48,227 bases of DNA from Candidatus Aenigmatarchaeota archaeon (GTDB taxonomy: Archaea; Aenigmatarchaeota; Aenigmatarchaeia; JACPZZ01), in contig JACQNZ010000002.1 in the NCBI GenBank assembly GCA_016202815.1, positions 1 through 48,227 on the forward strand. Reading direction: 5' to 3'. Positions 18,086 to 29,095 of the stretch are shown in pieces. Numbering within the stretch: position 1 is the first letter of the stretch; each line of letters starts with the position of its first letter. Under the pieces are notes generated by a model. That model did no database searches. It was not told where the DNA came from and saw nothing but the letters and a program-made list of their open reading frames with translations. The position numbers and the translations under genes were made by a program.

Positions 18086-18906
18086 TGAAAATTTTCATCG
18101 GACCCGCGGGCGTACCTATTTCATCGAAAGGAAAATCCACAAAAGACGGCATCGAAACCGTCTCCAAACTCGGATTAAACGCATTCGAAGTCGAGTTTGT
18201 AAGGGGCGTCGTTATGTCTAACGGCACAGCCAAAGAAATCGGCGCGATAGCAAAAAGTCTGGGAATAAAATTGTCCGTCCACGCGCCCTATTACATAAAC
18301 CTCAATTCCGCCGACAAGGCAAAGCTTGAAGCGAGCAAAAAGCGCGTCTTGGATTCTTTGGAACGCGGCCATCATATGGGCGCGGAAGTTGTTGCGGTTC
18401 ATGCATCTTATTATGGTGACGACACGCCCGAAAAAACCTACGAAGACACAAAAGAAGCGTGCGTCGATATCCTTGAAAAGGCGGCAAAAAGCGGCTGGGA
18501 CGGCGTAAAGCTTGGGCTGGAGACGATGGGTAAAAAATCGCAATTCGGCTCGCTTGAAGAGCTTGCCAGGTTGTCAAAGGAAATAAAAATAATCCCGTAC
18601 ATCGACTGGGCGCATATTTTCGTCCGCAACAACGGAACTATCGATTATTCAGGAATATTCAGCCAATTGGAAAAGTTAAAAATCAAAAAGATCCATTCCC
18701 ACTTCGAAAACGTAAAGAAAAACGGCAAAGGCGAATTTGTAGACGTTCATATTCCGATAGACCATCATCCGCCTTTCGAACCGCTGGCAAAAGAAATTTT
18801 GAAAAGGAAAATCGACATTACGTTAATCTCCGAGTCGCCGCTGCTGGAAAAGGATGCGTTGAAAATGAAAGGGATTTTGGAAAATTTGGGGTGTAAATTC
18901 AATTAG
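18085..18906 (+). CDS. nfo: Endonuclease IV-like AP endonuclease (TIM barrel)
   Basis: The 273-residue protein has the AP-endonuclease family 2 layout: FIGPAGVP at the N-terminus, the zinc-ligand histidines in SVHAPYYINL and VAVHASYY, Glu in LGLETMGK, YIDWAHI, a late His in IHSHFENV, HIPIDHHPPFEPL, and a final Glu in LISESPLL. The family incises DNA 5' to abasic sites with three metal ions. Length and motifs are complete. It overlaps the Yip1-like gene by one base at the start and the convergent swivel-protein gene by 4 nt at the end. Confidence 0.87.
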   Translation: MKIFIGPAGVPISSKGKSTKDGIETVSKLGLNAFEVEFVRGVVMSNGTAKEIGAIAKSLGIKLSVHAPYYINLNSADKAKLEASKKRVLDSLERGHHMGAEVVAVHASYYGDDTPEKTYEDTKEACVDILEKAAKSGWDGVKLGLETMGKKSQFGSLEELARLSKEIKIIPYIDWAHIFVRNNGTIDYSGIFSQLEKLKIKKIHSHFENVKKNGKGEFVDVHIPIDHHPPFEPLAKEILKRKIDITLISESPLLEKDALKMKGILENLGCKFN

Positions 18907-20315
18907 GATTTGTTTGAATCTATTGTTACAATTCCCTTATTCGCATCAACGCTAACAACATCCCCGTCATTTAAGACGTGTGTCGCATTCTTAGTTCCGA
19001 CTATACAGGGTATTCCAAATTCGCGGGAAACTATGGCAGCATGGCTGCTTAAACCGCCTTCATCCGTTACGACAGCAATCGCCTTTTTCATAGCAGGTAC
19101 AAAATCCGGATGCGTTGTCACAGCGACCAAGATATCTCCTCGGTTAACTTTTTGTAAATCACCGACGCCTTTTACAATTGATACCCGTCCTTTTGCATAG
19201 CCTCTAGAAGCCGGCGTCCCTTTAATCATAATATCCTGCTTTTGATTTTCCAGGATACCAAGCTCTTTTAGCTTAAAAAACATGTCGTTTCCTTCCATGC
19301 AAACAATATTATGGTTATCATCGAAAAATACAAGAAATCCGGTCTGTCTTTGCACCACTATTTCTTTTCGCGGCATTTTTGAATAATCCAGAAAATCCAG
19401 GATTTCTTTTTCTGTCAGATAGCTCGTTTCTTCCAAAGTTAATTTCGTTCGCCTACCCAACTCTTCAAACATTTTTTGGGCAAAGAAAACTCCTTTTCTT
19501 CGGTAATCATCGCGCGCGTCTTTCAAATATGCCAATTTCCTGGCTATCACGATCAATTCTTTTTCGTTAGGATCAAGTTTCAATTCTTCACTAGCTTGGT
19601 CACACGATACTCCATATTTTTTATCCGGATTTGAAGAAAGCATTATTTTCATATTACCGACGAATTGCTCATATGTCCATGGCCTGTTATGAATGTCCAA
19701 ACAAGCCATCCAATTGAACTCATCATAAAGTTTTTTCATATCATCTTCGCTTGCATCTCTTCCAAGATTTCGTAATTTCTCTTGCAGTAAAAGAGTGCTG
19801 GCTTTTTCATCCGGCTGTATAAGAACTCCAATGTATTCTATTGATTTATCCGATTTTCCTATACGCTGTGATTTGTCATCCACCAATTTTTTCACGGACT
19901 CCGACACGAATTCGTTAACTACGTGCAACATGTAAACAAAAGCACCGTAGTTCAAAAGGGTTTTTTGGTATTTCAAGTATTTGTTTTTCAATTCCTGATT
20001 AGAAATGTCTATTAAGTTTCCACCCGCAATGTCTCTGGCTATTCTGACATACTCTTCACCCAATTTAACAAAAGTTGACTGGAAAGTGTCGAGATTCTCC
20101 AGTGTACTCGTATATTTGGAATGGATCGCGGCCGTGAGCTTTGCCCAATCGCTTGCGGAAATAAAACAAGCCTCATTCTTGTTGTCGGGTGCGAACAACT
20201 GGTTGTAGAATGTATAAGGTACGAAATTTTTCGCTTCGTCGCTCAACGCACGCAAAGCCAAAGAAGTGTATTGGACGCCGTATTCGCGGGAATAGAATTT
20301 TGTCCAGTCAACCAT
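18903..20315 (-). CDS. PEP-utilising mobile (phosphohistidine swivel) domain protein
   Basis: The 470-residue protein ends with a clear PEP-utiliser mobile domain: IKGTPASRGYAKGRV, then DILVAVTTHPDFVPAM and TDEGGLSSHAAIVSREFGIPCIVGT, which holds the catalytic His. The N-terminal 350 residues are mostly helical and contain neither the ATP-grasp nor the PEP-binding domain of PEP synthase. It is therefore a partial relative acting with an unknown partner or substrate. ATG 20315 is chosen: it lies one base after the stop of the HD gene with a purine-rich GGAGAG upstream, so it is translationally coupled. It is last in the four-gene operon. Confidence 0.8.
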   Translation of the reverse strand: MVDWTKFYSREYGVQYTSLALRALSDEAKNFVPYTFYNQLFAPDNKNEACFISASDWAKLTAAIHSKYTSTLENLDTFQSTFVKLGEEYVRIARDIAGGNLIDISNQELKNKYLKYQKTLLNYGAFVYMLHVVNEFVSESVKKLVDDKSQRIGKSDKSIEYIGVLIQPDEKASTLLLQEKLRNLGRDASEDDMKKLYDEFNWMACLDIHNRPWTYEQFVGNMKIMLSSNPDKKYGVSCDQASEELKLDPNEKELIVIARKLAYLKDARDDYRRKGVFFAQKMFEELGRRTKLTLEETSYLTEKEILDFLDYSKMPRKEIVVQRQTGFLVFFDDNHNIVCMEGNDMFFKLKELGILENQKQDIMIKGTPASRGYAKGRVSIVKGVGDLQKVNRGDILVAVTTHPDFVPAMKKAIAVVTDEGGLSSHAAIVSREFGIPCIVGTKNATHVLNDGDVVSVDANKGIVTIDSNKS

Positions 20316-20316
20316 C

Positions 20317-20919
20317 TCAATCTCTCCACACATTTTCAGTATCTAACCCCAGTTCTTCTCTGATTTTTTCTATTCTACTAGCATACTGCTTGAAAACTTG
20401 CTCTGGTTTATGAAGGCGATAAAAACCTTCAGCTCCCTTGTAAAGTGAACAATCAAGCACATCCGCGTCCTTGGCAATTTCTACGTATGGATCATCGGAA
20501 TATACGTCCTTCTCGCTATGGTGCGCAACGGCCTGTACTATTGTTTTTATTTCCTGTCCTGTAAAACCGCCAACTTCCCTTAACAATTTCTCTGCTATAG
20601 GCGAACCCAATTTAGCATGGTCTTTGTACTTTCCCTCGACAATTACATAAATATCATGAAGCACGCATATTATTTCGACCAACTCGACGTCCAAGTTTCT
20701 TTTTTGTGCAAGTATTCTTCCGCATTGGATACATCCGCTTGAATGCTTCAATTCCCAAACAATGGAACTTTCCCTGACTTCATCGGGTATTTTATTTTCA
20801 AGAAGCAACTGTACGACTTTACGCTCGACTTTTTCTGATCTGGATAAGTCGTTCCCCTTATAATGGTGAAAATCTTTTAACATAACAAAAACTGGTTGTA
20901 TAGGCTTATATTCACTCAA
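20317..20919 (-). CDS. HD-domain phosphohydrolase
   Basis: The 200-residue protein shows the HD metal-binding pattern: His59 in KHSSGCIQCGR, His88-Asp89 in CVLHDIY, paired His133-134 in VAHHSEKD, and Asp151/153 in AKDADVLD. Related enzymes hydrolyse nucleotides or phosphate esters. The TTG start at 20917-20919 overlaps the stop of the epimerase gene (TTGAGTGA); ATG 20883 is an alternative. It lies between an epimerase and a swivel-domain protein on the same strand with overlaps at both ends, implying a shared pathway. Confidence 0.8.
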   Translation of the reverse strand: MSEYKPIQPVFVMLKDFHHYKGNDLSRSEKVERKVVQLLLENKIPDEVRESSIVWELKHSSGCIQCGRILAQKRNLDVELVEIICVLHDIYVIVEGKYKDHAKLGSPIAEKLLREVGGFTGQEIKTIVQAVAHHSEKDVYSDDPYVEIAKDADVLDCSLYKGAEGFYRLHKPEQVFKQYASRIEKIREELGLDTENVWRD

Positions 20920-21823
20920 CCGGATAATCCTTTACCAGCCTGTTAATGCCGTCTGCAAGGGACATTTTAGCCTCGAATCCCAGAATATTTTTTGCTTTGC
21001 GCGTGTCCGCTCTCGTCCGCGCAACGTAATTCTTTATCGCGTTCTCCTTGTGCTCGGCCTGTACGTTTGTTCCCAACGCTTTATTTAACGCGTCAACGAC
21101 CTGGTTAAACGACGTCTCGACGCCCGTTCCCAAGTTAAAAACTTCGCGCTGGAACTTGTTTTCCTTCAGCGCGTTCATCGCGGTCATGCAACCGCGGATA
21201 ATGTCTTTGACGTGTGTGAAATCGCGCGTCTGCCTGCCGTCGCCGAATATCAGCGGCTTTTCGCCGCGCTGAATGGCCCACAAAAATTGCGTAAGTATGT
21301 TAGCAAACTCGCCCTTCGCCCTTTCATTCGGCCCGTAAACGCTGAAAAACCTCATCGCCGCCGATCGAACGCCGTACAGCCTGTTATACAATTCCGCCAT
21401 GCGCTCCATCGCAAAACGCGCTTCGGTGTAGTAGTCCGTCACTTTGATTATCATGTCCTCCCTGTGCGGCGGATCAAGTTCGCTGTACAAGGACGACGAC
21501 GACGCAAATACAACCGGACAGTTTGACTGCCGCGCTATCTCAAGCATCGTTATCATGCCGTTTATCGCAGCACCGCACAATTTCGGATTGCGCTTGTACT
21601 GCGGCGACGAAGAATAAACACCAAGATGGTATATCTCATCGAATTTTTCTTTTGTCGTGAAATCCTCGCAGGCCTTGTGCACGACTTCGCATCCGGGCGG
21701 TACGTTGCCGCGGTCTCCGGTGTAAAAATTGTCCAGTATCGTGACTGTCCGGCCCAAGCTTAACAATTCGGCCGCCATATTGCTGCCGATAAACCCTGCC
21801 CCGCCCGTCAATAACGTCTTCAT
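20912..21823 (-). CDS. NAD-dependent sugar-nucleotide epimerase/dehydratase
   Basis: The 303-residue extended SDR has the NAD motif GGAGFIGSN (residues 7-15), SSSSLYSE, and RFFSVYGPNERAKGEF, as in UDP-glucose 4-epimerase and dehydratase relatives. The catalytic YxxxK is altered: DYYTEARFAMER gives Tyr132..Arg136, with Arg (codon CGT) at the Lys position. The substrate is probably a nucleotide sugar made by the nucleotidyltransferase upstream. It starts 6 nt after that gene and overlaps the HD gene by 8 nt. Confidence 0.88.
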   Translation of the reverse strand: MKTLLTGGAGFIGSNMAAELLSLGRTVTILDNFYTGDRGNVPPGCEVVHKACEDFTTKEKFDEIYHLGVYSSSPQYKRNPKLCGAAINGMITMLEIARQSNCPVVFASSSSLYSELDPPHREDMIIKVTDYYTEARFAMERMAELYNRLYGVRSAAMRFFSVYGPNERAKGEFANILTQFLWAIQRGEKPLIFGDGRQTRDFTHVKDIIRGCMTAMNALKENKFQREVFNLGTGVETSFNQVVDALNKALGTNVQAEHKENAIKNYVARTRADTRKAKNILGFEAKMSLADGINRLVKDYPVE

Positions 21824-21829
21824 AATTCC

Positions 21830-22678
21830 TCACGACAGCCAGTTCAATTTTCCTTCCTGCAAGTCCTTTTGGACCTTCTCATACGATTCAATGGAGCCTA
21901 TGTCAACCCAGTATCCGGGATGTATGTAGCCGCCCAATACGCCTTCGCTCGCAAGCTCCGGAAAAATGTTTTCGATCATCTGAAAATCCGATTTTATGTA
22001 ATCCAGTATGCCCTTGCTCAGCACGTATATGCCTGCGTTCACGAGCTTGGACTGCTTGTCGTCTTTCGTAGGCTTGGCCGTGAATCCGATTATCTTGCCT
22101 CCCTTCATTTCAGCCATTCCGAATTTTGTCGGGTCGTCGGCCTGCGCTAAAACCATGGTAAATTTCGCGCCGGACGCGCGGTGGAACCTGACCACGTCAT
22201 CGTAGTCTATGTTTGCTACGATGTCCCCGTTGAGCATAAGGAAAGTGTTGTCTAAACGGTTCTTCGCAAGTATTATCGGCCCGGCTGTTCCGAGCGGCTC
22301 GTTCTCTATTATGTAATCTATCTTCACTCCGAAATTGGACCCGTCGCCGAAGTAGCTTATTATTTTTTCCGCCTTGTAGCTTACGGAGAGCAGTATGTTT
22401 TTGACGCCTATTGATTTTAGCCTGTTTATGATGTGCTCCAGAATCGGCTTGCCGGCAATCGGTATCATCGTCTTCGGTATTTCATAGGTAAACGGCCTGA
22501 ATTTTGTTCCTTTGCCGCCCGCCAATACCAGGGCCTGCGTAACCGTTCCCTGGTCCAGCGCTTTTTTAATTAACACTTCAACCGCGTGCGAACGGTTCAT
22601 TATCATGCTGCCGTCGACCAACCCATCAACGTCTTTCAGAATCTCGTCAGAAAGTGTCAGCGATATCTTTTGTTTCAC
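21830..22678 (-). CDS. Ribbon-helix-helix domain fused to sugar-phosphate nucleotidyltransferase
   Basis: Residues 1-45 (KISLTLSDEILKDVDGLV, NRSHAVEVLIKKAL) form a ribbon-helix-helix DNA-binding unit. Residues from about 48 are a nucleotidyltransferase with LAGGKGTKFRP (52-62), EIPKTMIPIAGKPIL, LGTAGPI, MLNGDIV and a late GYWVDIGSIESY. Such enzymes make NDP-sugars from sugar 1-phosphate. The start is GTG 22678, preceded by AGAGGAA as a ribosome-binding site. A TATA box (TATTTATAATG) near 22740-22750 and a 17-bp palindrome at 22704-22720 precede it, so self-repression is likely. It is first in the four-gene operon; 282 residues. Confidence 0.88.
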   Translation of the reverse strand: MKQKISLTLSDEILKDVDGLVDGSMIMNRSHAVEVLIKKALDQGTVTQALVLAGGKGTKFRPFTYEIPKTMIPIAGKPILEHIINRLKSIGVKNILLSVSYKAEKIISYFGDGSNFGVKIDYIIENEPLGTAGPIILAKNRLDNTFLMLNGDIVANIDYDDVVRFHRASGAKFTMVLAQADDPTKFGMAEMKGGKIIGFTAKPTKDDKQSKLVNAGIYVLSKGILDYIKSDFQMIENIFPELASEGVLGGYIHPGYWVDIGSIESYEKVQKDLQEGKLNWLS

Positions 22679-22703
22679 GTAAATTCCTCTAACCTGTTGT
22701 TCG

Positions 22704-22720
22704 GTAGCATAATATGCTAC
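22704..22720. promoter_or_regulatory. 17-bp palindrome, probable operator for the RHH-fusion gene
   Basis: GTAGCATAATATGCTAC is an exact inverted repeat around one central base. It lies between the TATA-like box (about 22740-22750) and the GTG start (22678) of the RHH-nucleotidyltransferase gene, close to the expected transcription start. This position fits repression by the RHH domain of the encoded protein. Confidence 0.6.
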
Positions 22721-22875
22721 ATGATAATACAACTGGACATTATAAATACATTTTTTCTCGCGGCGGATTGAAACAGTATGTCGCGGCGTAGATCCACAGC
22801 AAGAATAAATACCAAAAAGCACAAACAGACTTAGTTGTTTTGTCAAGCTTTTAGCAAAAGTTTGGGGGATTTTAC

Positions 22876-23496: not shown

Positions 23497-23657
23497 AATG
23501 TAACAACGGCTTCGGTCTGGAATAGTTAATGCACCGTCTTCTGCGGATCGGCTAGCAAGTCACGAAAACCCGCTCTGCGGGGCGCAAAATTATATAAATA
23601 ACCGAACCGTATAATGATATGCTATTTGGTTCATAGTGTTTTTGGGTATTCTAAAAG

Positions 23658-23671
23658 CACTACCCGTAGTG
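23658..23671. promoter_or_regulatory. Palindrome upstream of nrdR
   Basis: CACTACCCGTAGTG is a 14-bp inverted repeat (6-bp arms) located 13-26 nt before ATG 23684 and downstream of a TATA-like TTATATAAATA (about 23590-23600). The TAGTGT half-site recurs at about 23633-23638. NrdR boxes in bacteria have similar TAGTGT-like halves, so NrdR autoregulation is plausible. Confidence 0.4.
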
Positions 23672-23683
23672 TTTGTGACTGTT

Positions 23684-24130
23684 ATGAAATGTCCCTACTG
23701 CCCGGCCCAGGAAACGAAGGTTATCGAGACCAGAGACACCGATTTGGACTCGTTGCGCAGGAGGCGCGAGTGCGCTAGATGTGGAAAAAGATTCACTACT
23801 TATGAGAAATTAGACGTTACTGGTCTGTTCGTCGTGAAACGCGACGGCCGCCGCGAGAAATTCGACAGGGTGAAGCTTCGTACAGGCATACTGAAGGCCT
23901 GCGAAAAAAGGCCCGTATCCCATGAAAAGATAGAAGCGGCCATTGACGAAATCGAAAAGAAACTGCGCGAAGGCGGAAAGACGGAAGTACGCACAAGGCG
24001 CATCGGGGAACTGGTCATGGAAAAGCTGCGCGAGCTGGACGAAGTTGCTTACATACGCTTCGCTTCGGTTTACCGCAACTTTTCCGATATCGAATCGTTT
24101 GAAAAGGAAATCAAGACCCTGAAAAAATAA
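23684..24130 (+). CDS. nrdR: Transcriptional repressor NrdR
   Basis: The 148-residue protein begins MKCPYCPAQETKVIETRD, the NrdR zinc ribbon (CPYC..CARCGKRF), followed by the ATP-cone domain (VVKRDGRREKFDRVKLRTGILKACEKRPV) and the typical C-terminus VAYIRFASVYRNF. NrdR senses dATP/ATP and represses ribonucleotide reductase genes. Here it lies 81 nt upstream of the class II RNR on the same strand, its expected target. ATG 23684 is chosen from the family N-terminus; the frame opens earlier at 23636. NrdR is mainly bacterial, so its presence in an archaeon is notable. Confidence 0.93.
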   Translation: MKCPYCPAQETKVIETRDTDLDSLRRRRECARCGKRFTTYEKLDVTGLFVVKRDGRREKFDRVKLRTGILKACEKRPVSHEKIEAAIDEIEKKLREGGKTEVRTRRIGELVMEKLRELDEVAYIRFASVYRNFSDIESFEKEIKTLKK

Positions 24131-24142
24131 TCGGGCTCATGG

Positions 24143-24198
24143 GCGCGCACGGCGTGCGCGCTTAAGAAGAAGTTGGCTGGCCTGCACATCGTGCAGGC
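24143..24198 (+). repeat. Two GC-rich hairpins between nrdR and nrdJ
   Basis: GCGCGCAC (24143-24150) pairs with GTGCGCGC (24154-24161) across a 3-nt loop. GCCTGCAC (24180-24187) pairs with GTGCAGGC (24191-24198) across a 3-nt loop. Both have GCAC/GTGC at the loop side. They lie just before the nrdJ ribosome-binding site GGAGAT (24208-24213 region) and could attenuate or terminate transcription between the genes. Confidence 0.5.
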
Positions 24199-24211: not shown

Positions 24212-27200
24212 ATGGTTGGCATGGCGATAGAGCAGATGGTTAAAAGGGACGGAAGTGTCGTGAATTTCGACAAGGAAAAAATAACCAACGCCATATTCAA
24301 GGCCGCACGTTCCGTGGGCGGCAACGACAAGGGTGTGGCGGAAAGATTAAGCAGCGAAGTTATTCGCGTTTTGGAAGATCGGGGAAAAATAATTCCAAAT
24401 GTAGAAGAGATACAGGACGTTGTTGAGAAAGTCCTGATCGAATCCGGCCATGCAGCAACCGCCAAGGCTTACATTCTTTACAGGCAAAAACGCGCCGAAA
24501 TAAGGGACGAAAAGAGGAAAATTTTGGAAAAGGCAAACGTTGATGAAGTCGACAAGATGTTCGACGTCAACGCGCTGCGCGTTTTGAAATCCCGTTATCT
24601 GAGAAAAAGCGAAGACGGGAAACTTATAGAAACGCCTAAGCAGCTGTTCACAAGAGTCGCGACGCACACCGGACTGGCTAACCTGTTCTATGACGAAAGG
24701 ATTTTCAGCAAAACTCCCGAAGCAAAGCACGCGACGGAAAATTTCGATCCGTCAGCAAACGACGCCCGCTACAAAGTTGGCAAATACGCTTTGAACCGCT
24801 ATCATCTTGAAGCCCTGAAGCGCGTTTACGACCGCATGAACGGAGAGGGTCGTATGAAAGTCGGCTGGAGTAAGTTCCTCAACATGATCGAGTCCGGAGA
24901 GATGGACAGCCACGAAAACGACATAGAAAATTTCTACAACTCAATGACATCGAAAAAGTTCATGCCTAACACGCCGGCGATAGCCAACTTCGGGAATGTC
25001 CTTGGGATGGGATCGGCGTGCTTCCACCCCAACCAGTTGATATCCGCAAAAGATGGGGCTAAAAAAATAAGCGAAATCAGGGTTGGCGACGAGGTATTAA
25101 CCCATCGCGGTAGATTCAGAAAGGTCAAAGAAATATTTATCAGGGAATCGAAATCTCTTCTTTCCTTCGACTGCAAAAAATTACCCAACCAGACTCTACT
25201 GGTGACGGATGAACATCCTGTATTTGCTCTAAAAGACGGCGAAGCTGGCTGGTATCCTGCGTACATGCTTAGAGAAGGCGACAACGTCGCGTTGTCGTAC
25301 CCCATCGAAACAAACGATATAGAAAGCATAAAAGTTAGTGACCTGGTCGAAGGCGTAACTGCGAAAGACGGTGTGTGCTATTATGAGTATAAAGGCGGTA
25401 AATTCGATGCGTTTGTCCACACTACAAAAAATGTAAAAGACAGGATTGAAGTGGACTACGACCTGATGAGATTGTTCGGATTTTACCTGTCCGAAGGCAA
25501 CGTTTCCGAAAGCGATTCAGTAAGATTCACGCTGTCTTCGGATGAATCGGATTATTGCGAAGATATTATCTCAACAATGGAAAAGAAGTTTGGAATAACC
25601 GCACGCATAGAAACCAACAAAGATCCTGAAAGGAAATGGCTATCGCTGCGTTTCCATTCAACGATACTCGCAAAATTCTTTGAAAACCTGTTCGGAACCG
25701 GTTATGATAAAAAGAAAATACCCGCTTGGATTATGGCGTTGCCTGTGGAGAAACAAAAAGGTCTGATGTCAGGCATGATACGCGGAGACGGGACAGTGTT
25801 CAAGAACTGGAATAAAATGAATGCGAGATTGGTGATGTCGAACACAAATCTTGTATACGCTTTCTGGCAAATGTGCATGCGCTGCGGTGTGTTTGCAGCG
25901 TTGGGGAAGGAAACCATGCCAAAACTTGCGCGCACCCAGCCGACAAGATGTACGCTCGGAACTGCAAAAGGACAGCTTTTGATGAACGAATTGTTCGGGC
26001 AAACTTTACAGGAAACCGTTGGGAAAGAAAAAACAGTTGTTGTAAACGGAATAACTTTCACCGAAATAGAAAAAATAGAAAAAAAAGATTATAATGGCGT
26101 TGTTTTCAACCTTGAAGTTGAAGAGGACCATTCCTATGTTGCGAACATGGTTTCCGTGCACAACTGCTTTGTCCTTGGCATAGACGACTCCATCGAAAGC
26201 ATAATGGAATCGCTGAAGCAGGCTGCGGTGATATTCAAATCCGGCGGGGGCTTGGGCTACAACTTCTCCCACCTGCGGCCCGAAGGCGATATTGTGAAAT
26301 CTACCAGCGGAATCGCATCCGGCCCGCTGTCGTTCATGCGCTTGTTCGACACGATGACCGAAGTAATAAAACAGGGGGGCATCAGAAGGGGCGCGAACAT
26401 GGGAATTCTAAATTCAAACCATCCCGACATAGAAAAATTCATCAAGGCCAAAGAGGGCAACAAGGCCCTGAGGAATTTTAACATATCGGTTTTGATAATG
26501 CCCGATTTCTGGGATTATTACGAGAAAAACGAACCGTACCCTCTGATCAACCCGCGCAGCGGCGAGATCATGCGGACCGTTAATCCCAGGCTGCTGTTTG
26601 ACATGATCGTGTACCAGGCGTGGGAATCGGCGGAACCGGGCGTGATATTCTTCGACCATGTCAACAAGTACAATCCGTTTTACGAACACTTGGGGCCCAT
26701 TGTTACGACAAACCCTTGCGTTGCTGCGGATACATTGGTTTCAACGGAAAGGGGCTTGGAAAGAATCGATTCTATAACATCCGAAAATATAACCGTAGAC
26801 GCGAGAACGACGCCGGCCGAATCCGGACAATCTACTATGCAGATGGGCGCATTGAATGTAAAGCTCGGCAAGGCGTTCAAGACCGGGTACAAAAGAACCT
26901 ACAGGCTTGTTACGAATTCCGGCTACGAACTGACAGCTACAGAAGACCACAGGATAATGACGGAAAGGGGCTGGAAAAATTTAAAAAGTTTGACGCAAGA
27001 AGACAGCGTGCTGATACAATCAGGGGCCGGCAAATTTAACGAAGACCCAAAACTTCCTATTGAAGTGAACAATAACATTGCCGGAGAAAACGGGAGAAGC
27101 TACACTTTAGGCCTTCCGTCTGCGTGGGATCACGAACTCGGCCTTCTAATGGGCTGGTTGGTTGGGGACGGCTTCATCAGCAATAGCACCCTGGGTCTCG

Positions 27201-29095
27201 TCTTCTCCAAAGAGGACGAAGAAGCAAGGCAAGTGATACAACCCATCTTAGAGAAATACTGCAACAGAAAAATCAATTTGCGAGAATATGATAACGGCTG
27301 CGTGCAAGCAAGGTCTGCAAGCAGATTTGTCATTGATTTCTTCTCGGGCTTGGGTGTGACCGGCAGCAAGGAAGACAGGCGTGTTCCGTCTTCATTATTT
27401 ACAGCCACGGAAGAAGCCGTGACCGGTTTCTTGAAAGGGTTGTTTTCGTCAGACGGGACGATAGGGATGGGCGACAAAAGCAGGAATTACGCAAGGCTTA
27501 ATTCCAGCTCCTTAAAACTGCTTAAAGACGTCCAGCTGTTGCTGCTTAACATGGGAATAAGAAGCTCAATTTATGACCGCTCTACAAACCCGAAGAAATT
27601 CAATTACATCAAAAAAAGCGGTGCTGCAGTTGAATATATGACATCAGGCAAGAACTATGAGTTAAACAATGATTTGCAATGCAAATCATGCATAGGAAAC
27701 AGCAGTTTCCTATGTATAAGCAAAGAAAATCTGCCCAGATTCTTGAATAAGATAGGCTTCTTACAAAGAGAAAACATAGAAAAGGCTGATGAACTTCAAA
27801 GCTTTGAATTCTACAGGGAGAACTTCGTAGACAGTGTTAAATCTATCGAAGATGCTGGCGAACAAGAAGTATGGGACATTAACGAGCCTGCAACGCACTC
27901 GTTCGTTGCGAATGGTATTGTGGTGCACAACTGCGGTGAGGTTTTGTTGTATCCGAACGAGCCTTGTAACTTAGGTTCGATTAATGTCTGGGCGTTTGTA
28001 AAAGAAAAAGATGGCGCAGTCTATTACGACTGGGAGGGCCTGAAAAACACCGTGCGTGTTGCAACAAGATTTTTAGACAACGTGATCGATGTAAACAGGT
28101 GGCCCACGCCTGAGATTGAGCAAATGGCCCTCTCGACAAGAAAAGTGGGCTTGGGTATAATGGGCCTGGCCGATCTGCTGTACGAATTGCGGCTGGCCTA
28201 CAACTCCGAAGAAGGCCGGAAGTTCATGGAAAAGCTTATGGAGTTCGTCAACTATTACTCCAAAGTCGAATCTCTTGAACTTGCGAAAGCGCGCGGGTCA
28301 ATGCCGTACCTTGATAAAAGCTTCTATCCGAACGGACGACTCCCGTTCGCCGGATTTGAGGACAAGAACAGCCTGAACTTTGACTGGGATGCGCTGGTCG
28401 AGGAAATAAAAACGCATGGAATTCGCAACGGCTACACTACAATAATCGCGCCCACCGGAAGCATATCGATGATCGCAGGCTGCTCGTCTGGTATAGAACC
28501 GGTCTACACGCTTGCGTTCGAGAAAAACGTGGCGATAGGAAGCTTCTATTACGTAGATCCTGCCTTCGAGAAGATAATGCGCGAGGAGCGTTTATTCGAC
28601 GACCAGCTGATCAAGGACGTCGCATTGAGCGGCGGGACGATACAGGGCGTGCAATATGTGCCAAGTCTGCTAAAGCGGACCTTGGTTACTGCCATGGACA
28701 TCAGGCCCGAAGACCACATACGCGCGCTGGCAGCATTCCAGCGCTGGACAGATTCTTCGATATCGAAGACCAACAACTTCCCTGCCGACGCCACGGTCGA
28801 GGACATGCGCGAGAGCTATCTGCTTGCGTACAAGCTCGGCTGCAAAGACGTCACAGTCTACAGGGACAGCTCTATCAAAAACCAGGTGCTGGTAGTCGCA
28901 AAGAAGGAGGAGCAAAAACGCATCCCTGTGGAAGCGCGCGGCCGTTCGGACATGGAACCGTATCAGAGGCACGCATCAGACGACATACCGGCGCATGAGT
29001 TAAAAAACTGCAAAGAATGCGGCACGGACTTGTTGAAAAAAGAAGGCTGCTTGTCATGTCCGTCGTGCGGCTGGGGCGTCTGTACGTCGGCGTGA
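24212..29095 (+). CDS. nrdJ: Class II (B12-dependent) ribonucleotide reductase with two inteins
   Basis: The 1627-residue precursor gives about 840 residues after removal of two inteins. An N-terminal ATP-cone (VKRDGSVVNFDKEKITNAI) is followed by NTPAIANFGNVLGMGSA, the first redox Cys at CFVLGIDDS, GGGLGYNFSHLRP, IRRGANMG, and the active-site NPCGE (thiyl-radical Cys with Asn and Glu). NEPCNLGSIN (second redox Cys), APTGSISMIAGCSSGIEP and a C-terminal zinc/redox segment KECGTDLL..CPSCGWG complete it. It reduces ribonucleotides using adenosylcobalamin. The frame extends slightly upstream of the probable start; ATG 24221 (MAIEQMVKRDG) is also possible. NrdR precedes it. Confidence 0.96.
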   Translation: MVGMAIEQMVKRDGSVVNFDKEKITNAIFKAARSVGGNDKGVAERLSSEVIRVLEDRGKIIPNVEEIQDVVEKVLIESGHAATAKAYILYRQKRAEIRDEKRKILEKANVDEVDKMFDVNALRVLKSRYLRKSEDGKLIETPKQLFTRVATHTGLANLFYDERIFSKTPEAKHATENFDPSANDARYKVGKYALNRYHLEALKRVYDRMNGEGRMKVGWSKFLNMIESGEMDSHENDIENFYNSMTSKKFMPNTPAIANFGNVLGMGSACFHPNQLISAKDGAKKISEIRVGDEVLTHRGRFRKVKEIFIRESKSLLSFDCKKLPNQTLLVTDEHPVFALKDGEAGWYPAYMLREGDNVALSYPIETNDIESIKVSDLVEGVTAKDGVCYYEYKGGKFDAFVHTTKNVKDRIEVDYDLMRLFGFYLSEGNVSESDSVRFTLSSDESDYCEDIISTMEKKFGITARIETNKDPERKWLSLRFHSTILAKFFENLFGTGYDKKKIPAWIMALPVEKQKGLMSGMIRGDGTVFKNWNKMNARLVMSNTNLVYAFWQMCMRCGVFAALGKETMPKLARTQPTRCTLGTAKGQLLMNELFGQTLQETVGKEKTVVVNGITFTEIEKIEKKDYNGVVFNLEVEEDHSYVANMVSVHNCFVLGIDDSIESIMESLKQAAVIFKSGGGLGYNFSHLRPEGDIVKSTSGIASGPLSFMRLFDTMTEVIKQGGIRRGANMGILNSNHPDIEKFIKAKEGNKALRNFNISVLIMPDFWDYYEKNEPYPLINPRSGEIMRTVNPRLLFDMIVYQAWESAEPGVIFFDHVNKYNPFYEHLGPIVTTNPCVAADTLVSTERGLERIDSITSENITVDARTTPAESGQSTMQMGALNVKLGKAFKTGYKRTYRLVTNSGYELTATEDHRIMTERGWKNLKSLTQEDSVLIQSGAGKFNEDPKLPIEVNNNIAGENGRSYTLGLPSAWDHELGLLMGWLVGDGFISNSTLGLVFSKEDEEARQVIQPILEKYCNRKINLREYDNGCVQARSASRFVIDFFSGLGVTGSKEDRRVPSSLFTATEEAVTGFLKGLFSSDGTIGMGDKSRNYARLNSSSLKLLKDVQLLLLNMGIRSSIYDRSTNPKKFNYIKKSGAAVEYMTSGKNYELNNDLQCKSCIGNSSFLCISKENLPRFLNKIGFLQRENIEKADELQSFEFYRENFVDSVKSIEDAGEQEVWDINEPATHSFVANGIVVHNCGEVLLYPNEPCNLGSINVWAFVKEKDGAVYYDWEGLKNTVRVATRFLDNVIDVNRWPTPEIEQMALSTRKVGLGIMGLADLLYELRLAYNSEEGRKFMEKLMEFVNYYSKVESLELAKARGSMPYLDKSFYPNGRLPFAGFEDKNSLNFDWDALVEEIKTHGIRNGYTTIIAPTGSISMIAGCSSGIEPVYTLAFEKNVAIGSFYYVDPAFEKIMREERLFDDQLIKDVALSGGTIQGVQYVPSLLKRTLVTAMDIRPEDHIRALAAFQRWTDSSISKTNNFPADATVEDMRESYLLAYKLGCKDVTVYRDSSIKNQVLVVAKKEEQKRIPVEARGRSDMEPYQRHASDDIPAHELKNCKECGTDLLKKEGCLSCPSCGWGVCTSA
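25019..26164 (+). mobile_element. Intein 1 in NrdJ (382 residues)
   Basis: The intein starts at Cys270 (GSA|CFHPNQLISAKDG) and ends VSVHN before Cys+1 (CFVLGI). Block A, block B (TDEHPVF), two LAGLIDADG-type endonuclease motifs (MRLFGFYLSEGN and GLMSGMIRGDG), block F (YNGVVFNLEVEEDHSYVANM) and the terminal His-Asn are all visible, so it should be splicing-competent and probably endonuclease-proficient. It sits immediately before the first redox-active cysteine of the reductase. The host gene is non-functional unless splicing occurs. Confidence 0.95.
26717..27931 (+). mobile_element. Intein 2 in NrdJ (405 residues)
   Basis: The intein starts at Cys836 (TNP|CVAADTLVSTERG) and ends GIVVHN before Cys+1 of CGEVLLYPN. 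Block B (ATEDHRIMTERG), endonuclease motifs (LGLLMGWLVGDGF and FLKGLFSSDGT), and block F/G (EVWDINEPATHSFVANG, HN) are present. It interrupts the NPCGE active-site box exactly before the thiyl-radical cysteine. Residues encoded by 27671-27717 come from two abutting palindromes and may be a later insertion. Confidence 0.95.
27671..27717 (+). repeat. Two palindromes embedded in intein 2 coding sequence
   Basis: GATTTGCA (27671-27678) pairs with TGCAAATC (27680-27687) around one base. CATAGGAAAC (27691-27700) pairs perfectly with GTTTCCTATG (27705-27714) around AGCA, with three more pairs at the base including one wobble. The block stays in frame and encodes LQCKSCIGNSSFLCI, between the endonuclease and splicing parts. 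Its GGAAAC arm matches hairpins at 1152-1200 and 6138-6230. Confidence 0.75.

Follow-up and report, generated by a model that had tools for sequence, protein, structure and literature searches.

The window, that is, the whole 48,227-nucleotide stretch of DNA analysed here, comes from the 0.95-Mb genome of a Candidatus Aenigmatarchaeota archaeon. Its minus strand carries a gene for a 282-residue protein (21830..22678, GTG start at 22678 and stop at 21830), in which a ribbon-helix-helix (RHH) domain (residues 1-43, 22550..22678) with K-I-S-L-T as its predicted DNA-contacting strand is fused to an NDP-sugar nucleotidyltransferase domain (residues 48-277, 21848..22537; signature GGKGTKFRP and FTAKP motif). 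Three further minus-strand genes presumably belong to the same operon: those for an NAD-dependent epimerase/dehydratase, which comes next (20912..21823; PF01370, 1.1e-41), an HD-domain protein (20317..20919; PF01966) and a protein with a C-terminal PEP-utiliser mobile domain (18903..20333; PF00391). The promoter of the fusion gene comprises a TATA box conserved in the genus, GTATTTATA (22741..22749, minus strand), and three putative operator boxes. Box 1, GTATTATCAT (22721..22730, minus strand), is conserved in five genomes, and box 2, GTAGCATATT (22711..22720, minus strand), is conserved in the genus, both following a 10-bp period. Box 3, GTAGCATAAT (22704..22713, plus strand), is an inverted copy that forms a 17-bp palindrome with box 2. 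Elsewhere in the window, positions 1-1391 correspond to the 3' end of an archaeal 23S rRNA gene (RF02540), and a search of the window for tRNA genes found none. An ORF of 1627 residues for a ribonucleotide reductase (24212-29095) shows, by eye, two intein-like insertions. An nrdR-like gene (23636-24130) is found just upstream of it, with two strong GC-rich inverted repeats between these genes (24143-24161 and 24180-24198).

The fusion of an RHH repressor domain to the enzyme had been proposed in the preliminary description, and it is genuine. Taken alone, the sequence of the window protein gives weak matches: residues 1-45 (KQKISLTLSDEILKDVDGLVDGSMIMNRSHAVEVLIKKAL) match Escherichia coli NikR (1q5v) with an E value of 0.027, and the match of the RHH segment to PF01402 (E=0.26) is under the Pfam cut-off. 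Membership of the RHH superfamily (MetJ/Arc/CopG/NikR), with its strand-helix-helix arrangement, is recognisable using a profile of 20 family members, which matches NikR at 7e-8, and PF01402 is matched by 19 of these 20 members. The AlphaFold model of the window protein with four orthologs (pLDDT 34) was too poor for a fold search, and its secondary structure string (strand 7-9, helices 11-22 and 29-42) is merely consistent with an RHH domain. A start codon downstream of the RHH region would have removed the domain from the protein. As the four orthologs, with 89-92% identity to the window protein, all keep the RHH domain and an ATG or GTG at the same place, such a downstream start is excluded and GTG 22678 stands as the start.

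The perfect palindrome reported between the TATA box and the start codon, GTAGCATA-A-TATGCTAC at 22704-22720, is also real. However, about ten palindromes with 8-bp arms and spacers of 0-3 bp are present in the window, so that this one is not special by itself and chance statistics alone make unconvincing evidence. Its significance comes from conservation in the genus. Alignment of the window with the four orthologous regions shows that the TATA box is immediately followed by a conserved block, GTATTATCWT-GTAGNATANN-RTNCTACC (22704-22730), which contains the three boxes with a 10-bp period. These boxes lie where we infer that transcription from the TATA box should begin. A predicted operator in the gene's own promoter, a trait of trigger enzymes such as PutA, is thus present in the form of conserved boxes, to which the protein would bind.

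Fusions of this kind recur in archaea, as a search suggested at the outset has established. We searched 156 genomes of the phylum for related proteins and 392 archaeal genomes with the RHH profile. At a threshold of 1e-8, the profile matched in 117 genomes, a few of which contain only free-standing, short RHH frames. Our collection of archaeal fusion proteins that keep the RHH domain and are 200 residues or longer comprises 110 distinct members. Fusion genes and unfused nucleotidyltransferase genes form a single similarity cluster of 108 loci. The commonest neighbours of the fusion genes are epimerase/dehydratases (42 loci), and UDP-glucose/GDP-mannose dehydrogenases (28), phosphomannomutases (16) and glycosyltransferases are also recurrent; these names were read from the sequences, with a profile search checking part of them. 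A heptose kinase-phosphoheptose isomerase, whose identity was confirmed, is present near 11 fusion loci. Genes in which these two heptose functions are fused were also observed in archaea (HddA-GmhA, L065 5922-7496; HldA-GmhA, L180 472-1980), and they point to the synthesis of nucleotide-activated heptose in the phylum.

Boxes similar to those of the window are enriched in the promoters of the family. We examined 108 upstream regions, each 100 bp or longer, and counted 79 GTATGA boxes versus 6.2 in dinucleotide shuffles, 105 GTATTA/GTAATA boxes versus 31.8, and 22 GTAGNAT boxes versus 6.5, and 63 promoters have at least two boxes, versus 8.2 in shuffles. This enrichment is partly circular, since we derived the box types by eye from the very promoters that were counted. 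The spacing is much less so: 40 same-strand pairs are found at 10 bp and 10 at 11 bp, with 0.04 of each in shuffles. Furthermore, the exact tandem TCATACNNNNTCATAC (TCATAC-N4-TCATAC) occurs 50 times in the 156 genomes, representing about 125 Mb, and 21 of these copies, in 20 genomes, precede a fusion gene by no more than about 110 bp, whereas random placement of the 50 copies would give about 0.002 such cases. About a dozen other copies, inside coding sequences or at unrelated genes, look like chance occurrences.

The sequence of the boxes appears to track that of the RHH strand, R-x-T-x-T going with GTATGA and K-x-S-x-T with GTAGNAT. When the fusions are classified by residues 4, 6 and 8 of their RHH domain, GTATGA is found in 27 of 33 promoters of the R-T-T class, and the R-S-T class has GTATTA/GTAATA in 21 of 33 promoters and GTATGA in seven. 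GTAGNAT is present in 10 of 14 promoters of the K-S-T class, to which the window protein belongs, versus 4 of 73 in all the R classes. After collapsing related sequences at 70% identity, the associations of K with GTAG and of T/A with GTATGA have p values of 1.6e-4 and 1.1e-9, respectively. At 50% identity, these values are 0.014 and 8e-4, and the covariation weakens at 45% identity, where few groups remain and the values are 0.26 and 0.037. On a tree built from the enzyme domain alone, independent pairs gave ratios of 6:0 (p=0.03) and 6:1 (p=0.125, not significant alone), both in the expected direction.

We used sequence-pattern searches to look for a candidate regulon. Elsewhere in the genome, the palindrome finds its best match at the pgk promoter, in the form of a symmetric variant. 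The pattern GTAGNATANNNTNCTAC occurs perfectly at exactly two places per genome in all five genomes of the genus, namely, in the promoter of the fusion gene and in that of a pgk-gapdh pair, identified by PF00162 and a weak match to PF00044. At the latter promoter, ATAGGATAATGTAGGATA is invariant in the genus and its flanks diverge. The 27-bp form of the element finds both promoters in every genome of the genus and, in three of the genomes, also a third conserved site, which is weaker. This third triple-box promoter, GTATGATATA-GTAGGATATA-GTGGTAT (G000:C3:84232-84258, which is L109 1356-1382; G088:C25:65008; G086:C35:1865), is found right after a TATA box, before a short ORF or structured region beside an EamA-like transporter gene, and an Rfam search of the region following the G000 site gave no credible match. 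A one-mismatch site in the genus (L002 1501, L104 1501) precedes a small winged-helix-like gene, which is followed by a gene for a very large, secreted-looking protein. The corresponding operon of genome G064 (L117/L195) carries a tandem, the box sequences differing between these two distant families, and the small winged-helix-like proteins of the genus and of G064 are 38% identical.

In family f16, GTATGA tandems are present at fbp aldolase/phosphatase-pgk (L113), pgk (L179), aldolase-glpX-pgk (L181), hldA-gmhA (L180) and rpiB (L114) promoters, as well as at that of a PEP synthase gene named from its sequence (L183). In family f31, three pgk promoters have at least three boxes. At least two boxes are found at pgk promoters in 8 of 32 genomes with a fusion versus none of 17 without, a rough count in which some starts are fallback positions. 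Since the other 24 fusion genomes have fewer than two boxes at pgk, control of this gene would be lineage-specific. The genomes of family f32 could not serve as a fusion-free set, as they turned out to carry divergent fusions. A contig with hddA-gmhA and the GTATGA tandem typical of f16 (G089:C27, L177) is probably a contamination of its genome bin, for which 5% is reported. As for the initial idea that the protein switches its own operon, autoregulation is well supported at the sequence level by the genuine RHH domain, the wide distribution of the fusion, and a conserved promoter element whose divergence parallels that of the RHH strand. However, the predicted targets extend beyond its own operon to pgk/fbp/glpX and heptose genes.

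Homology of the second domain is clear: PF00483 (NTP_transferase) matches the window protein at 2.6e-47, over residues 49-275. The domain is closest to mannose-1-phosphate guanylyltransferases, under every NCBIfam equivalog cut-off. The enzyme had been described as catalytically complete, which does not hold as worded. The PK, NGD, NAG and WVDIG motifs are present, but relative to the complete set (GGxGTRLxP, PK, GD, EKP, WxDxG), the canonical Arg of the signature is replaced with Lys (GGKGTKFRP) and the Glu of EKP with Ala (AKP). In the family, GT(R/K) of the signature is kept in 30 of 110 fusions and lost in the other 80, among which D152 is present in 71, E201 in 63, K202 in 64 and P203 in 70. 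In RmlA and GlmU, residues of the D152 and EKP types hold the metal and the sugar phosphate. The signature-lost members thus appear to be devoid of the triphosphate loop, and the residues for the metal and the sugar phosphate mostly stay. Promoter boxes are found for 50 of 66 members without the signature and the PK motif. As such members keep the boxes, the shared function of the family looks like DNA regulation rather than catalysis. The window protein is near-intact, and in this species, it may also still be an enzyme.

We consider it probable that this gene codes for a one-protein metabolic regulator with autogenous control, namely, a repressor that senses a sugar ligand and has a small carbohydrate regulon, in a logic like that of PutA. 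Comparison of the approximately 110 relatives indicates that the fusion protein would bind matching DNA tags at its own promoter and at those of sugar-phosphate genes, for gluconeogenesis and heptose synthesis. In the proposed mechanism, the N-terminal RHH domain would dimerise, and its K-x-S-x-T strand would read the GTAG-type boxes that follow the TATA box at 10-bp intervals, ahead of the start codon. As the boxes lie about where transcription should begin, binding should block initiation, with RHH dimers on adjacent boxes excluding RNA polymerase from the start site. Control by the protein would similarly extend to pgk-gapdh, whose promoter is the one remaining perfect site in each genome of the genus. 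As for the nucleotidyltransferase domain, it would serve as the ligand-sensing module, its occupancy changing the affinity for DNA; that the ligand is a sugar phosphate or an NDP-sugar is our guess. On balance, we also favour, with less assurance, a broader reading, in which these proteins form a widespread family of archaeal transcription factors, found mainly in small genomes, that arose by fusion of an RHH domain to an NDP-sugar synthase. Many of its members would later have lost catalysis to become pure sensors of sugar phosphates that coordinate nucleotide-sugar and heptose synthesis with gluconeogenesis and have a readable strand-to-box code.

Other explanations were considered. It is possible, if rather unlikely, that the protein regulates without sensing, its nucleotidyltransferase domain setting the oligomeric state and self-repression holding its level constant. 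The loss of the catalytic signature in 80 of 110 members fits with this idea, and a simple autoregulatory loop would account for the boxes in the own promoter. Nevertheless, the conservation of D152 and the EKP residues in signature-lost members and the recurrence of boxes at sugar-phosphate operons suggest a metabolic signal. An activator or a dual regulator in place of a repressor is less probable still: the site at the winged-helix/secreted-protein operon (L002, L104) is upstream of the TATA box, but at the fusion and pgk promoters, the boxes are downstream of it, over the expected start, which is a repressor position.

It is improbable that a different, free-standing regulator binds the boxes and that the RHH domain of the fusion is a mere dimerisation or scaffolding module. 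Other RHH proteins do exist in these genomes, the profile picks up short, lone RHH frames in a few of them, and GTATGA is read by NikR itself. However, the RHH family profile has a single credible match in the genome of the window, namely, the fusion (E=6e-25; the next, at 0.08, is within another protein). Across families, the box has its centre at the promoter of the fusion gene itself, and the box sequence follows the strand of the fusion protein. In addition, the exact tandem is absent from genomes G058 and G062 of family f16, in which no good match to the fusion is found. Finally, an ordinary sugar nucleotidyltransferase with a vestigial RHH domain and a chance palindrome is very hard to credit. 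Palindromes of such sizes are common in the window and the single-sequence RHH match is weak, but this view is refuted by the conservation seen within the genus, by the 10-bp period and by the recurrence of the tandem throughout the family.

The ligand-sensing repressor that we favour would provide a concrete regulator candidate, with an operator and a candidate regulon, for DPANN archaea; to our knowledge, regulation in their uncultured members is nearly unknown. The enzyme family appears to have been turned into a metabolic switch, and its approximately 110 proteins represent a graded series from near-intact enzymes to signature-lost sensors, illustrating how a metabolic enzyme may be converted into a transcription factor. 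They also lend themselves, as a natural data set, to the study of the RHH recognition code. We found no description of RHH-nucleotidyltransferase regulators in the open-access literature, subscription papers being outside the scope of the search, and within the open literature searched, a nucleotidyltransferase as the sensor in this role is new.

Among known systems, GDP-mannose pyrophosphorylase, RmlA and HddC have catalytic domains homologous to that of the fusion. The latter differs by the addition of the RHH domain and, in the window protein, by the Lys and Ala substitutions in the signature and EKP motifs, and most of its relatives are without the signature. The C-terminal domain of NikR, a nickel-responsive repressor, is an ACT-like, metal-binding domain. 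In the fusion, the C-terminal part is a nucleotidyltransferase instead of a nickel-binding domain, although NikR is the closest solved RHH protein to the family. The strand of NikR, R-V-T-I-T, and its GTATGA half-sites [PMC7055735, PMC4486848] are as in the R-T-T class of fusions. Nevertheless, NikR reads GTATGA-N16-TCATAC, whereas the boxes of the fusion genes are in tandem at 10 bp. Trifunctional PutA, in which an N-terminal RHH domain is carried by a metabolic enzyme, is an autogenous repressor of its regulon [PMC5293562]. The fusions similarly combine a DNA-binding domain and a metabolic enzyme in a single chain, an arrangement conserved in 110 proteins. However, the RHH domain of PutA is joined to proline dehydrogenase/P5C dehydrogenase, to which the enzyme domain of the fusion is unrelated. 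The fusions are also set apart by their archaeal hosts, their 10-bp GTA-box arrays, their predicted targets, which belong to gluconeogenesis and heptose synthesis, and the degenerate catalytic sites of many members.
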